Source: Cladophialophora immunda
Taxonomy: Eukaryota > Ascomycota > Eurotiomycetes > Chaetothyriales > Herpotrichiellaceae
Reading direction: 5' to 3'
Length of the DNA: 64,000 nt
Assembly: GCF_000835495.1 (NCBI RefSeq)
Contig: NW_015622546.1
Coordinates: forward strand, 1,862,883-1,926,882
Shown here: one piece after another, positions 52,326 to 61,615 of the stretch
How positions within the stretch are numbered: the stretch's first letter is position 1
Layout of the letters: every line of letters begins with the position of its first letter
Notes under the pieces: model-generated
What the model was told of the DNA's origin: nothing
The model's input: only the letters and a program-made list of their open reading frames with translations
Database searches by the model: none
Translations under genes and position numbers: made by a program

Positions 52326-53825
52326 TCACGCCCGCTCACTACCCCTCAGCCTCACAGCCTGGCCGTACTTCTGCAGCTTGGTGATCAGGGCATCGCCTTG
52401 TTTCACAACGTCTGCATATTGCTTGTTCTTGTCATCCGGCCGGGTTGTCTCGATTGTCCCCTGCACTCGGTCGATTGTGCAACTCACCCGACCACCCGCA
52501 ATGAATTTGGCCAGATCTCGGTCCAAGAAATCCACGCTGACCCCAAATGCCTGTGCCATCGTTGCCAGGCCCACCACGCGGTAAGATTGGAGAAGCTGTT
52601 GATATCCGCGCAGCCGCATCTCTCGCACAAACCACGCTCGGTGCTCGTATAGGTATCGATCCTGCGTCAAGAAGTTCTCTTCGACAGCCGCCAATGCCAG
52701 GAAGAAATTGCGATAGTTGCCACTGTAGAGGCTGTTGACCAACCCGGCCAACGAGGAAACATCCATCGGGGCTTCGTTCTGCGACTGGACTGCGCTGCTA
52801 GTCCCCAGCGTATTGACGTTGACGAGGCCGGCGGCACGTTCCGCAGTTGCAGCAGACGCGTCCTTCATCTCTTCATCTGCGCTGGGCGCCTTGTCCTCGC
52901 TATCTCCCAAGATCGCCTTTATCTCGGGCGCATCGACCACTTTGGCTTTGAAATCGACCCGCTTAAGGGAAAGCGATCCTGCAAGCACAGCGTATACGAC
53001 GAGGGAGGAATAGCTGCAAAGCTCATAGCTGGTAAAGGTAGAAAGGCTGTCGAGGAGTAAAGGAGCGGCCAGATTATAGGATCGGACAGTGAGCAGGTGT
53101 AGGCCCTTGTAAGCTTTTAACCGATTTCTTCGATCCCAGTCTCCGCCACTCTCCACCAGAATATTTGCGCGTTCGATTTGTTTCTTGGTGAAAGCTTTGT
53201 CGTTGAAGAAGATGCCGACCCGGATGATGGCGAGGACAATATCAATCTTGGTGCCCAACGGACCAGTCTTGTCAAAGACTTTCTCATATGCAGCAATAGC
53301 TTTGTCCTAGTACCTGGTCAGAGAGGTGTAGCTTCGCGATATAAGCTCCTTGCTTACCTTGTCGCCAACCCGGGCCCAGAATTCGGCACGCTTGCTGCGA
53401 GCCGCCTGCACCTCTGTTTCTCCAGCCTTCTCTTCAGCTTCTTCTTCCTCTTTCTGGAACTGCTCCAGCTCCTTTGCATTGTCGGCCTTGAGTTCCTCAT
53501 ATAGCGATTCGTCCCATGGCAGAATGCCGGAGGGCACGGGCTTCTTCGGCGGTAACAGGTTACTTGACACGAGCGATGCACGTCGGGCAGAAGGCTTAGT
53601 CGGTGGTTGTAATGGTTGAGCTGTGCTTTCTCCCACGGTATTTAGCACACCTTCAGTAGGATGGGCCAAATGCCGATATAGCGGCGCCATCTTCTGGTCT
53701 TTGATTGCATTTTGAAGGTAATTCAAGGACGCTGGCTGGACAGTCCGGGGCGCATTTGCAAGGGAAAAGATGTGCTGGGCGAGGGTAAGGTCTGGATATT
53801 TGGCGAACTGAGGATCTGAACCCAT
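52326..53825 (-). CDS. RPN7: 26S proteasome regulatory particle lid subunit RPN7 (PSMD6)
   Basis: Exons 53358-53825 and 52326-53306, intron 51 nt (GTAAGC...GTACTAG), 482 residues. The protein starts MGSDPQFAKYPDLTLAQHIFSL; helical repeats ELEQFQKEEEEAEEK and KAIAAYEKVFDKTGPLGTKIDIVLAIIRVGIFF follow, then a C-terminal PCI domain (LYEHRAWFVREMRLRGYQQLLQSY...MAQAFGVSVDFLDRDLAKFIAGGRVSCTIDRVQG). RPN7 is a PCI-domain scaffold subunit of the proteasome lid. Fungal members have about this length. An acidic linker (SEDKAPSADEEMKDAS) interrupts the middle. The neighbouring gene at 54816 is also a ubiquitin-system protein, which may be coincidence. Confidence 0.95.
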
Positions 53826-54815
53826 TGTACTGGACGGCTGAGCTGAGAGGTATTAGTTGCAGACACAGGAAAGAGAGGGAGCAAGAGCAAGCGACTTAGT
53901 GTTGGCTTTGGGTAAATATCACGACAACGTCGGAGAACGCGCAGCACAAGCCAGCCTAGTGTGCATCTGGCATATATGGGTCACCGTAATTGATACGGAC
54001 GATCATAGGAGTTTACACAGCAAGGTCAACGTCGTCTGTCCAACTGCGTCTTTGTTCAACTTTCTCCATCACTTTTCCATCTTTTGAAAGACATGAATTT
54101 GAAATAAAATCTATCTCGTGCTACAGCATAGATCACCACTGTCCAACTAGCAATGGCGGCCTCGATAACGGCTGACAAGGCTGCGCTGACCTGTCGCGTT
54201 CAAATCCTACCCCGCGCCTTTCCATGTGAACAGGATCAGTTGTGCCTGGCTTCACTTAAAGGCTCCTTGCTGATGCCCGCCCGTGGGTGTCTGGATGTGC
54301 TGAATCCAGCTGTCGGAATGATGCATTACCATTGCTTACCGCGGGGGTCAGTACCTTGACAGGCTGCTCAGATGAGAGGCAGCCTTGCCCCTGCCTTGTC
54401 GCAGTTCCCAAGACGCTCCCACCTTGTATTGTTTCCGCTGGGATTGCGTTCTAAAATACTATATCTGTGGATTTCCTCTTTTGAAACCGATGGTTTTTCC
54501 AAGGACACGAAAACAAAATCCGGTGAAATTCTGCTAGTTTACCCCCTTTGTTTCCAGGCAGCGCTGAGTCTTGCCCTACCACAATCCAAATCCTCACTTC
54601 AAACGTTCCTCAGTCTCGTCCTCTTCGCTTTCACATTGCCTTAAGACTGCCCCAGGATCACTGCCTCACAGCGTGCCTTTCCCATCAGCAGCTCTTCTTC
54701 CTACTCATCGTTTCTCTTTACATCACCCTCTTTTCTTTTCTTCGGTCTTCATCTCCCTATCTTGCACCAATCCATCTCAACCGCATATGTTGTCCTTTCG
54801 GCCTTGATTGTCGCA
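53826..54815. other. Divergent intergenic region between RPN7 and the ubiquitin fusion gene
   Basis: About 990 bp containing both promoters. 54690-54780 is strongly pyrimidine-rich and is a likely leader of the gene at 54816. A stretch near 54195-54218 resembles a tRNA T-arm but does not fold (see rejected items). Confidence 0.55.
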
Positions 54816-57800
54816 ATGGCCCCGTACAAGGTCGCCTTGGTACCACCAAAAGGTGGTAGGCTTGACCTTGTTGTACCGTTCGATGGCAGTCGTACGTTCT
54901 CGGACCTTACCTCTGCTGTCATACAACGTGCCTCGAAGTACCGCTCCTTGCCTTCCTGTGTCCGACAAGATTGTTTGAAACTCTGCCTAGGCTCGGATGA
55001 TGGCTACCTGGTCGAGGCGGATGATATTATCCAGGATGTAATCGGCGCCATGGACGTGCTTTTCATCATCTTTCTTGACGGCCCGCTATCTGACGCTCAG
55101 GTTGGTGGCAATCAACCTTCTGCTAACGGTGCACGTCAAATTCGAATCATCACTCCAATATCGGCACAGCGAAATCCCGATGCCCGGAAAATCCCTCTCC
55201 TGAAAGACGGCCGCTATTACATCCAAGGCGCCAATTTCAGAGTCATATCAAGATGTTTTCAATACCAGGTTCGATCTTCACACCATTGAAGGCCCTATCA
55301 ACACCCCCAACCTCAGCTTGACACTTCAAGATGCTAGACTGGCTGATATTGCCGTCGAAGGCGTGCTTACGATATACGCCGTCGAATGGACATCTGATGG
55401 GAGTGGAAAGAAAGGGAGTGGGAAAGATGCCATTTTCACAGCTGCCAGCCACTGGAGGCTGCCTTCGGTCCAATCACATCGTGGCATGGCTGCTGTTTTA
55501 GCATCGCTTCGTGTATTCTCACACCTCACAGGGTCTGAAGAATTTGATGACCACCGTCAAAATGAAGTTCTCGGAGTACTCCATGTACTCACCCGTTTCC
55601 CGCCGGCAGTGAGAGCTGCCCACATTCTGATGGATGGAAAGAGCCTCAAACCAAACGAGAGTGCCGCCCTGGTGCAGAGCATTGCCGGGGTGGCAGAGGA
55701 GCTGATACCTCGGGAGCTCATATCGCATGATCTGAGTCGCAGTCTGGAAGGTGCGAGACTCGTCCTTGGACTGGTACTCCACAAAGCTCTCGGCCGACAG
55801 GCACAGGAAAATGAAGGTTGGGACACAGCAACGGCATCGAGACGCAGCCTGCCTTACATCACAGGATATCAGACTGTTGATTTGAAGGACGTCAAGACAC
55901 TAGAAGTGGTCACCGAGCCAATTTTGACGAATGTGGGCTTAGTCAACATGAGCGTCTTCGAAGCGTTCTCCATCTCTGGGCCCTTGAAACATAGCCCTTC
56001 GTGCTACCTTACAGACCGCAGTCAGGAAGATTTGGCACGGATTCGAGTGGCACTCCTGTACGGCGGCGTGGCTTCGGAGGCAACGTACTATGATGCAAAT
56101 GTCCTGAGGGCAGCAATCAGTCGGTCCACAGGTACGGAATCGCGGTCTATTGACATCCAGAGTCTATCCCGTTACCTTGCCTTGCTCGCTTTTTGGTGCG
56201 AGAAGACCAAACTTGTGGTTGTTGCACCTACTCGGCTGTCGGATGCAACCGCACCCTGTCTGACCCTCGACGGACATGGCAATATGGCGGTTTACACCGG
56301 AAGGCCTGCTTGCGCTGCACCAGGCCACGATCATGCATTGTTTCACCCGTTGACTGGAATCGAGGAGAATGTCGATGTTACGATCGTCGCTCAAATGCTA
56401 GAACCAATTCTGCTGGCTCGAAAGAAGGATGGCACCCACGTGTTGGATCTCTTCAGCTCGAGTTTCCGCCACAAAGAGTCTCTTCCAACTGAACTAGTTG
56501 TCTTCTGTGTTGACTGCAGCAACAGTATGAAGCAGTCCTCGGATTTTCCGGAGCTAGATGAAAGCGACGACGATGAGATCCTCCCACCCTTTCCCCGGTT
56601 TTATTCCAAGGCCGATTTTGATATTGTCGTGGATGACGAGGACAATACAGATGTTCCGTTGGATGTGATCAAGTCTTGGCTACGTGGCCACGAATCCTAT
56701 GAGGACATCCTTCATATCGTTCGTCACTGTCTTCTCGATTCCCAGGAAGTCTTGTCGAAGATTCTCGAGTTCTTGAGAGACTTGATACATCGAGAGCTAA
56801 CTCACTTAACGAAAAAGTGGCGGATTCACCCACAATGCGCCATGACTGCGGCTGCCAGGCGCCAATTTCGGTCCCTGATATGCATCCTTTCAGGGCTCAA
56901 CGTTCACGAAAGAGCCTTGTCCGATTATTTGCTCTTCAATGCCGAAGACCCGTCATTTGAATTAAAAGAATTCGCGTGGTCATATGGTGATGAAATACCT
57001 TGTCCCCCGCCCTCCGCCTCGACTGAGGAGACCATAGGACTGGATGATTTTTGTGTCGTCCCTAAGGAGTACCTCTGTCCAATCAGCCAAGTCCTTTTCG
57101 AAGATCCGGTGTCAACATCCGATGGATTTATGTTTGACAGACAGTCAATCGAGAGATGGTACTGTATCCGCAACAGCTCCCCATTGACGGGACTTCCTAT
57201 CACGGACACAACCTTGAGGCGTGACGAAGTTATGGCGAATCAGATCAAGTCCTGGGTCAAAGCGGAAGATATCATCGATTCTTTGCCGCCGACGCCTGAA
57301 CGCATCCGAGTCTTCATGCCCCAGTCAGGTTTTGTCATAGACTTCGTTGGCCCCTCAATCTTCTTCAGCAGAGAACTGCCAGGATCCTCACGTCTGTTGG
57401 ATTTACACAAGGTTGCATTTCGCGGGATGCGAGGTCTTTACTCCAGATTCTCGCTGTACATGGGAGGTGTCTATCTACCTTGCTCTGAAGAGAAGATGAT
57501 TCAAAAAGGAGTGGTAGGCGACCAGACTATTACCATCAGTCCCAACCACATCCCACACGGTGAATCCGGCCGAGGTTCGACAAGTCAAGAGCAAATGTGT
57601 CTCATTCGAGTATATGATATGTTTGATAATTCACTGGGGGTCCTCAACTACTGGGTACCATTGAACTCCGAACTTACATTCGGTTCTATTGTTTTCCGCA
57701 ATTGGAGATATCACGTCCAGCACAGCGGCTTTCACGACTGTGAACACGATATGTCTCCATTCACTGATATGCAAGACGGCGGCGATGGCGCAGTGTGTGC

Positions 57801-59371
57801 CCTAGAACATAAGTTGTGGACGCCACTGTCCGACTCTTTGAGGTTCCTTCCTCTAACCAAGATCCAAGAACATGAACCGATGTACGAACGCATGCGCGAC
57901 GCGGCGAAGAAGTCAGCCACAGCCCATGGCGATGGCACAGATCCGGCAGTCAATCAATCAAGCACGACCGCGGGAGAAGCCCGTTGCTATGGCCATTATC
58001 GAGTTCTGAAAGTGCGATTGGACCAATACGAGAGTCCAGAAGAGCAGGAGCAACAAAGACTGTACAGGCAGAGAGTGCCATCAAGGATGGCTGTGACCGA
58101 ACAGATCTTCTCGCAATTCATCAACAGACTAATTGCGTACAATTACCACACAAGCGTGGGCCTGGTCACCTTCGGGACAGAGGCGATGATCAGCCAGAAA
58201 GTGACGGACGTCATTGAAAACGTCCGACAGGCCGTGGAGGGTATGGAAGAAAAAGGCGACACTGCTCTATGGGACGCGCTTGCATTGGCGGCGGATCATC
58301 TAGTCGAAACGAGTCGTCGTTACCCTTGGGTCAAGAAGAGAATCATATGTCTTTCTGACGGCGAAGATACCAGTTCGGTCAAACAGGCGGAGGACGTTTG
58401 TCGAACCTTGATGCAGCATGGGATTGTGGTGGACTCGGTCTGCATTGGGCATGCGAGCAATCGTGCCTTGCAGACGATCTCTTATTTTACCGGAGGATAC
58501 AAATTTGTGCCCAACTCAGTGGAAGAGGCCTCTACCTTGTGCGAACTAGAGCCGGTGCTGTCGATCCATGAACGACCACCAGTAATTCGACCCACATCGG
58601 AGTACACTTTCAACTATGTGCGCGAGACTATGAGCTCAGACCCGGATCCCGTCACCAGTGATCATTTTCCTGCTCGCAAGACACATGAGAATCTACATGA
58701 CACATTCTTTCAACTCGGCCCTTTTGAAAGAACGACGAGTGCAAGATTCCCAACGCTTACTTCAGCTTCGTCGCTCCGAGAACCGAGAGTGCTGGAAGAA
58801 ATCCGCGACCTTATCAAGCGGCCTCATCCCTCGTACGACGTGTTCATTTCTGATAGCAACATGGCATTCTGGAAGATCGTGCTGCAAGGTCCCACCGGAT
58901 CGGCGTACGCAAGCGGAGCCTTTGTCCTATATCTGGACATGGGAGAGGACTACCCGCGAAAAGCTCCAAGTGGGCGATTTGTCACTCCTATCTTCCACCC
59001 CAATGTAAACAGACACGGGAGGATCTGGTAAGTTGTCCCCCTCCATCCCGCGCTGACTCTTGTCTTTTGGCTTAACATGGACTGAGACTGACGGCGTTTT
59101 GTGTTTCGCACTAAATAGTCATTCTATCTTCGACCGGAACTGGACGGTCGACACCACCAACAAGCAGATCCTCGACACCGTCTTCGGCCTCCTCCTCGTC
59201 CCCGAGTTCACCGACCCCATCAACACCGTGGTGACTTTGAATTACTACTGGGACGAAGTCGCCTTCAAGGACGAGGTGCAGAAGCACATCCAGAAACACG
59301 CGTCTAAGTCGAGAGCCGAGCTGGGCCGAGAGATTGTCGAGGGACCCGAAGGTGCGTTGCGCAACTTGTAG
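54816..59371 (+). CDS. U-box E3 / vWA / E2 (UBC) ubiquitin-system fusion protein
   Basis: About 1,470 residues. An N-terminal part (54816 to about 55200) is followed by one long frame (about 55240-59027) and a last exon 59119-59371 after a 91-nt intron (GTAAGT...AAATAG). The frame changes once between about 55100 and 55260; TTTCAG at 55235-55240 is a good acceptor but the donor is unclear. Domains by position: vWA metal motif DCSNS at 56512-56526; U-box 57061-57270 (EYLCPISQVLFEDPVSTSDG, IERW, SPLTGLP); the rest of vWA 58075-58480 (VGLVTFG, GDTALWDAL, LSDGED); E2 domain about 58790-59340 with HPN (58996-59004) and catalytic Cys encoded by TG at 59026-59027 plus T at 59119. The U-box would dock an E2 and the UBC domain carries ubiquitin, so E2 and E3 functions sit on one chain. 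Substrate unknown. Confidence 0.9.
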
Positions 59372-60048: not shown

Positions 60049-61615
60049 TTACAGCTCCTGTGCCCTCTCGACGGCCACGACCTTCTCTTCGTGATACTTC
60101 TTGGTGCCGAGAGAGGCAACATCGTAGCCGTGCTTGATCAGGTAGTCCCGGAAGCGCTCGTCCTCCTTGGTGATGGTGTCTTGGCCGATATTGGGCAGGC
60201 AGAACAGGGCAACGAGGCCGGAGAAGATGCACAGGGCGCTGGAGACGTAGAAGGGATATTGACCCTGCTTGATGACGTTGTCGCCGGCGGCCTTGATGAT
60301 GTCCGGGAAGATGTAATTGCCGACGAAGGCGCCGATCTTGCCGCAGGCCGCAGCCAAACCGTAGTACATGCCACGGACCGAGGTGGCCGAGGTCTTGGAG
60401 GCGACTAGGCCGATGTTGTCACCAGGGCCGATCTCGCCGAGGGCAAGAAAGATGCCATAGATGACAACAAAGCCGCCGACATGGGAGGCCTGGTCGAGGT
60501 GCTTATAGATGGCGGTCATGATGAAGCCGACAATGCCCTGCAGTAAGACACCGGTGACGAGGCAGTACTTGGGGCCGATCCAGTCGGAAAGGAAAGCGCC
60601 GATGATGGCACCGGGAACGTAGAACAGGTTAATGACGGTGTTCCAGCCAAAGGATTTCCAGAGGGGTGCATCGGCAGGGAGCAGGAAGGCCAGCCATGAG
60701 GAAGAGTAGATGCCGAAGGAATAAGTGGAGAAGTCGTAGATGAACCAGATCAGGGAGACGATGATCAGACGCCACCAGTAGAACTTGAGGATCAGCCAGT
60801 ATGGGTAGTGGTTCATCTTGTTGCGGTGGTATTCCTCGGGTTCTTGCAGCTTGATCCGCAGCCAGAGGAGCGACAAGGGGGGAATGACGCCCAAGCCCAA
60901 TGCGATACGCCAGGCAGCGCGGAGGTGTTTATCGGTAAAGATCAGGGCCAGGATCATGGGCACGAAGGCTGCCACGACGAAACCAACGTCAATGGCCAGA
61001 TTGGTGAAGCAGATGAACCATCGGTTGCGGTGGCCGTGCTTGAGTTCACCGGTGCTCTCCGCGCACGCGACTGAGCCGGCTGGGTATTCTCCTCCGATAC
61101 CAACACCAAGAAGGAAGCGGTAGGCTGCCAATGCGGCGAAGAGGCCTTGGATGCTGCCGCCAGCGCCGTATGAACCTGCACCCAGTGCAGCGAAGACGAT
61201 CAGGATGATGGTGGAAATCAGGAGTGAGTGTCGGCGAGACCAATGGTCAGACAGATAACCGAAGACCAGCTGGCCCAATACTGTGCCAGCGAAGGCAATC
61301 GAGGCCACGTTGTTCTGGGCATCGGATTTGGTGTACTCGTCCTTGTAAATCGTCTTGAGCATGGTGTTGACCGATCCGATGACCTATACCTCAGTCGTCA
61401 GTCTCGTCCAACTTGATGTTTTGGTTCTTGGAGGCACCTACGCCATTGAGATAGCCATCAGAGAATAGTCCTGCACCGCAGGCCATGACAGGCCATGTTC
61501 GTTCCCATCTTGACTTTGGAGTGGCGTCAAGGGGAGCTTCGTGAACCGAGTACGAGCGTGCAGCCTCAGGGCCAAGTCTTTCTTCGATGATCTGCTTCTC
61601 AGGAGGAGTATCCAT
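60049..61615 (-). CDS. GIT1-like MFS transporter (phosphate / glycerophosphodiester type)
   Basis: Exons 61442-61615 and 60049-61383, intron 58 nt (GTAGGT...GGTATAG), 502 residues. The join reads SDGYLNG-VIGSVNTML. It has twelve predicted helices. MFS signatures are GYLSDHWSRRHSL (loop 2-3) and the family block RFLLGVGIGGEYPAGSVACAES, and the second half holds FLSDWIGPKYCL. The DGYLNGVIGSVN start and GGEYPAGS belong to the proton-coupled phosphate:H+ symporter branch that includes yeast Git1 (uptake of glycerophosphoinositol and glycerophosphocholine). The substrate is inferred from resemblance only. It sits at the plasma membrane. Confidence 0.9.

Follow-up and report, generated by a model that had tools for sequence, protein, structure and literature searches.

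Neither UBE2O nor BIRC6, both large hybrids of a ubiquitin-conjugating enzyme (E2) and a ubiquitin ligase (E3) with a ubiquitin-conjugating (UBC) domain, is known to contain a U-box, and UBE2O is not known to have a von Willebrand factor type A (vWA) domain either. Together with UBE2Z, they are treated as E2s within larger multidomain proteins in PMC11354881. According to PMC2964712, BIRC6 is a very large protein with BIR repeats and a C-terminal UBC domain, and the fungal clade 6A poly(ADP-ribose) polymerases (PARPs) are multidomain proteins that end in a UBC domain. Here, we describe a gene on the plus strand of a 64,000-nucleotide stretch of the Cladophialophora immunda genome (contig NW_015622546.1, positions 1,862,883 to 1,926,882; the window, to the first nucleotide of which all coordinates refer). 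Its product likewise ends in a UBC domain, but has a vWA domain and a U-box where BIRC6 has BIR repeats and the clade 6A proteins have PARP (PMC2964712). By eye, a clade 6A PARP-like protein with a C-terminal UBC domain of the kind described there is encoded elsewhere in the same genome (L039 3402-7001, minus strand, G000:C7). The window gene belongs to a real and conserved family of E2/E3 hybrids that is unstudied as far as our open-access search reached; the docking residues of the sequences lend no support to a U-box that drives the E2 of the same protein.

The main frame of the gene comprises 1275 stop-free codons (55204-59031), and its putative coding part (55204-59027, 70% identity to residues 346-1607 of P0001 from Cladophialophora bantiana, the closest relative) encodes the middle region, the vWA domain, the U-box, and the first half of the UBC domain. 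A 91-nt intron (59028-59118, GTAAGT...TAG) interrupts the codon of the catalytic Cys; splicing restores homology and joins the second half of the UBC domain, read in another frame, from the last exon (59119-59371 including the stop codon, 92% identity to P0001 residues 1609-1683). Seven database relatives terminate at the intron site with ...HGRIW, like the unspliced reading, which suggests that the intron position is common to the relatives. A Pfam scan of the spliced gene identified the U-box (57058-57273, PF04564, E 4.7e-13, 49.5 bits versus a curated cut-off of 21.4), the vWA domain (58081-58563, PF00092, E 1.8e-12, profile positions 21-152), and a full UBC domain (58774-59326, PF00179, E 7.7e-30, profile positions 1-139 of 140) with the HPN motif and the catalytic Cys. 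The U-box matched solved U-boxes, and the closest solved structures to the UBC domain were those of yeast Ubc13. The initial annotation, made from the sequence alone, had placed a complete U-box at 57061-57270 and a complete UBC domain with HPN and Cys at about 58790-59340, and Pfam confirmed both domains. Its statement that both lie in one reading frame needs correction: they belong to one spliced gene, in which the second UBC half is read in a frame other than that of the first.

The vWA domain named in the initial annotation is present but split in two. Alignment placed its first strand with the DxSxS loop of the metal-ion-dependent adhesion site (MIDAS) at 56488-56532, and the remainder recognized by Pfam contributes the MIDAS Thr and Asp, completing the metal site. 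Directly after the metal-binding DxSxS loop, the domain is interrupted by an insert of approximately 510 residues (56533-58062) that contains helices, the U-box, and beta-grasp-like segments, the latter called by eye from the secondary structure of the model. The initial annotation had missed that the U-box is nested in the vWA domain and that an intron lies in the UBC domain, and likewise the N-terminus that is shortened or broken and the relatives in fish (both described below).

The main and last exons together showed 71% identity to P0001 over 1349 aligned columns, with higher values for the UBC domain (86%), the U-box (82%), and the vWA domain (77-84%) than for the linkers and other parts of the insert (57-61%); the ubiquitin-like segment was 73% identical. 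A whole-length search, in which the best 7994 candidates were scored, retrieved 57 proteins at E 1e-151 or better, 54 of them listing both U-box and UBC. With the vWA-UBC end of P0027, 149 proteins were found, and both domains were listed in 120/120 among the matches listed; the UBC end of P0079 retrieved 88 proteins, 68 of which list a U-box. Across fungi, the architecture was recovered in six classes of Pezizomycotina, the named members coming from Eurotiomycetes, Dothideomycetes, Leotiomycetes, Sordariomycetes, Orbiliomycetes, and Pezizomycetes (one species checked per class). When 132 proteins were scanned, every motif pattern was found in 54, and the order MIDAS DxSxS, U-box, MIDAS Thr, UBC was present in 52 of these and in the window gene. 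Individual residues were counted in an alignment of the 132 proteins, taking as denominator those with the respective column (a regular-expression count missed real motifs). The UBC Cys and the following His were each conserved in 118/119, the HPN Asn in 127/128, and the MIDAS Thr and Asp each in 132/132 sequences, and the D, S, and S of the first MIDAS motif were nearly invariant (at least 90%) in 57 relatives. The U-box retained an Ile (118/132) and a Pro (131/132) that we take to be its E2-facing contact residues. At the sequence level, this is a conserved E2/E3 hybrid family of Pezizomycotina with near-invariant catalytic residues, and the combination of E2, U-box, and vWA domain in a single polypeptide, proposed in the initial annotation, is supported by relatives with the same domains.

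In the source databases, the relatives are named hypothetical proteins, 'peptidylprolyl isomerase', 'bifunctional E2 E3 enzyme', or by a list of the three domains. Judged by domain content, Lecanosticta acicola P0105 ('bifunctional E2 E3 enzyme'), Cercospora beticola P0116 (likewise, with 'putative'), and Septoria P0118 ('ubiquitin-conjugating enzyme E2, von Willebrand factor, type A, U-box') belong to the same family. As these names spell it out, the architecture is already recognized by annotators. Many relatives carry the UniRef name 'peptidylprolyl isomerase', and the Pfam scans run showed no such domain. A search of the open-access literature, with most subscription papers outside its reach, gave no study of the vWA/U-box/UBC architecture among the matches listed.

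E2s are charged by E1, not by a U-box, and RING and U-box ligases bind them typically, if not universally, via a Ser-Pro-Ala motif located after the active site. At this site, the window UBC domain reads T-V-D. The Pro was found in 0/120 sequences with the column, and the position of the Ala was occupied by Asp in 116/120. Of nine other distinct E2s readable among the E2 loci retrieved from the same genome, seven kept the Pro, and the remaining two read SAV (L003) and WSNK (L038). The lack of Pro at the docking site throughout the family speaks against a U-box that binds the UBC domain of the same chain by the ordinary contact and favors a UBC domain that would act independently of a ligase. 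UBE2O, again a large protein, carries a UBC domain in its C-terminal half that lacks the docking Pro as in the window family. The suggestion in the initial annotation that the protein charges its own E2 was not borne out, given the role of E1 and the missing Pro. By eye, L038 1344-4715 (G000:C6:787843-791214, a 1124-codon frame on the same contig) is itself a UBE2O-like E2/E3 hybrid.

In the reading that we tentatively prefer (probability roughly 0.45), the UBC domain acts on its own in the manner of UBE2O, and the U-box recruits another E2. The vWA domain, perhaps with the ubiquitin-like segments, would grip the client at its metal-dependent face. E1 would charge the UBC domain, which would then hand ubiquitin to the client without a RING or U-box, and the U-box would separately recruit a common E2 similar to Ubc13 or Ubc4 for the start or extension of a chain. 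The proposal in the initial annotation that the vWA domain may choose substrates fits the conserved metal site.

Several observations weigh against this reading. The loop T-x-D that replaces Ser-Pro-Ala is itself conserved and may represent a special docking site. RING and U-box ligases employ a linchpin Arg; the usual linchpin site of the U-box is Gly or Asn in 128/131 sequences, so that its ligase activity may be weak. The fish proteins again combine U-box and UBC domain in one chain, which hints at joint working. Of the 88 proteins from the P0079 search, the 20 that list no U-box are all shorter than 1000 residues; their gene models may be incomplete, or these may be forms that lack a U-box. 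Finally, the window copy may have a broken N-terminus.

This last point concerns the window copy alone and not the family. The N-terminal coding stretch (54816-55212, plus strand), which begins with a putative start codon, showed 74% identity to residues 1-144 of P0001, the final residues (up to approximately 55212) aligning weakly. It is weakly similar to Par3_HAL_N_term (E 0.016, under the Pfam cut-off) and beta-grasp-like. Downstream of a junction at approximately 55213-55240, the window aligns to P0001 from residue 343-346 on in a different frame, and about 200 codons of P0001 are absent. With the flanks in different frames, the start at 54816 is putative. A six-frame search with P0001 gave no match to the absent part in the assembly at E 1e-3, and no GT[A/G/C]NG donor was found at 55050-55320. 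The absent segment of P0001 contains a Cys/His-rich stretch (residues 168-270) to which Pfam matches were sub-threshold only; hence, it is termed RING-like rather than RING. Among 164 proteins scanned by pattern, the N-terminus was readable in 62, and 10 of these have such a stretch, including the Pezizomycete P0117 (residues 222-272). The window copy thus differs from its closest relatives in lacking the RING-like stretch and in the frame break near its N-terminus.

These features would be explained if the window copy were a decaying or shortened allele, the product of which starts downstream or is not made. Against such decay stand the 1275 stop-free codons with 71% identity over the remainder, the better conservation of domains than of linkers, the 21 GT-AG pairs able to connect the two frames, and the Chaetothyriales gene models P0013 and P0031, which are likewise without the RING-like stretch. 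We consider an allele in decay doubtful, though a serious candidate and compatible with the other readings. A splice with a poor donor, a downstream start, a break, or a misassembly may each account for the N-terminus; as judged from its sequence, the window copy is atypical at this end and retains its catalytic part.

The preferred reading, with a UBC domain independent of the U-box, has a rival in a pair working in cis, a corrected form of the idea in the initial annotation, in which the nested U-box would bind and activate its own UBC domain via an altered interface and require only E1 and ubiquitin. That fungi and fish alike keep both domains in a single chain despite their different order, the conservation of T-x-D, and the retention of the E2-facing Ile and Pro of the U-box would all fit such a pair; the missing docking Pro (120/120) and the missing Arg at the usual linchpin site (128/131) speak against it, and we regard it as rather unlikely.

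The fish proteins bear on this question. The search with the UBC end of P0079 also returned the teleost proteins P0153 (Aulostomus maculatus) and P0154 (Centropristis striata), whose genes lie on contigs 26 and 39 Mb long. Their vWA-UBC block showed 27-34% identity to five fungal members (pairwise BLASTP, E 3e-57 to 3e-68), and a Cys-His signature follows GRI as in the fungal proteins; the middle region of P0154 aligned weakly to P0001 (22% identity, E 1e-5). Like the fungal members, both have a U-box in addition to this block, but their vWA domain is contiguous and the U-box is located behind the UBC domain (Pfam); P0154 carries an ordinary RING at the N-terminus. The three domains thus occur together although the U-box was relocated or gained twice. 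Inspection by eye had suggested that fungi and fish carry another, degenerate U-box ahead of the vWA domain, but this was rejected: profile comparison with the fungal U-box gave probabilities of 13% and 1%, and Pfam found no U-box in the two fish pieces in question.

For the fungal model as for that of the fish, the best viral fold match was A0A1V0SEK3 of Hokovirus HKV1 (BFVD; 'E2 ubiquitin-conjugating enzyme', 1329 residues), with E values of 1.1e-46 (fungal) and 1.7e-36 (fish) versus 4.3e-8 and 1.4e-12 for the runner-up. The fish model had a mean pLDDT of 55.8; its low-confidence regions were excluded from interpretation, and its match to the virus comes mostly from the better-modeled region (approximately residues 640-1020). 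Given TM-scores of 0.28-0.36 and the weakness of the fish model, the Hokovirus link, made by fold and not by sequence, has to be taken as a lead. Three protein-based scans of IMG/VR matched 28, 49, and 46 stretches, none of which was confirmed by tblastn; two DNA patterns matched 17 and 0 stretches, and tblastn with six members and a family profile found nothing in the 17. No match was obtained by tblastn of P0153 against phage records. Mimivirus R795 reportedly carries the name 'putative bifunctional E2/E3 enzyme'; a literature search directed at this protein listed one unrelated review. Ubiquitin and other genes of giant viruses are treated in PMC11915834, in the consulted passages of which R795 is not mentioned.

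A tree was calculated from 50 vWA-UBC segments (59 picked from 164 proteins, nine of which were dropped by the segment finder) and rooted on the fish proteins, so that the fungi group together by construction. The fish branch joins between Chaetothyriales/Verrucariales and the other fungi, and the tree may reflect descent with losses or an old transfer alike. Dothideomycetes and Sordariomycetes interleave, and for this reason transfer within fungi may have occurred. An old ubiquitination machine common to fungi, fish, and a giant virus, with the vWA-UBC block as inherited core, a U-box that moved or was gained twice in the same chain, and mutual action of U-box and UBC domain via an interface other than Ser-Pro-Ala, is in our estimate unlikely.

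A non-catalytic scaffold, in which the UBC domain or the U-box has lost its activity and the protein binds ubiquitin conjugates, would be in line with the loss of docking motif and linchpin; it is improbable in view of the retained UBC Cys (118/119) and HPN Asn (127/128). That two separate genes were taken as one is hardly credible: the intron within the UBC domain and the different frame of the N-terminal part would fit this, but U-box, vWA domain, and half of the UBC domain share a single stop-free frame, and 54/57 whole-length matches list U-box and UBC.

Upstream and head to head with the window gene lies a minus-strand gene (52329-53852) for RPN7, a lid subunit of the 26S proteasome (PF10602, E 1.4e-45, and PCI). 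The two genes, both of the ubiquitin system, may share a promoter region, a single observation from one genome. The downstream neighbor (60052-61383, minus strand) encodes a major-facilitator transporter (PF00083, E 1.3e-37). A piece of the insert region (57527-57680) recurs alone on another contig (L012 1511-1664, G000:C5) with 94.8% identity over 154 bases, which marks it as a fragment duplicated fairly recently.

Only a few E2/E3 hybrids exist, and the working of an E2 and a ligase domain in cis can rarely be tested in one natural protein. The family described here unites an E2 and a U-box with a vWA domain that probably binds clients, in a single gene that is conserved across much of a fungal subphylum, together with a built-in comparison between a U-box inside the vWA domain (fungi) and one behind the UBC domain (two fish). 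If the UBC domain works independently of the U-box, the family would represent an E2 freed from RING control; if it depends on the U-box, the two would form a new E2-E3 interface.
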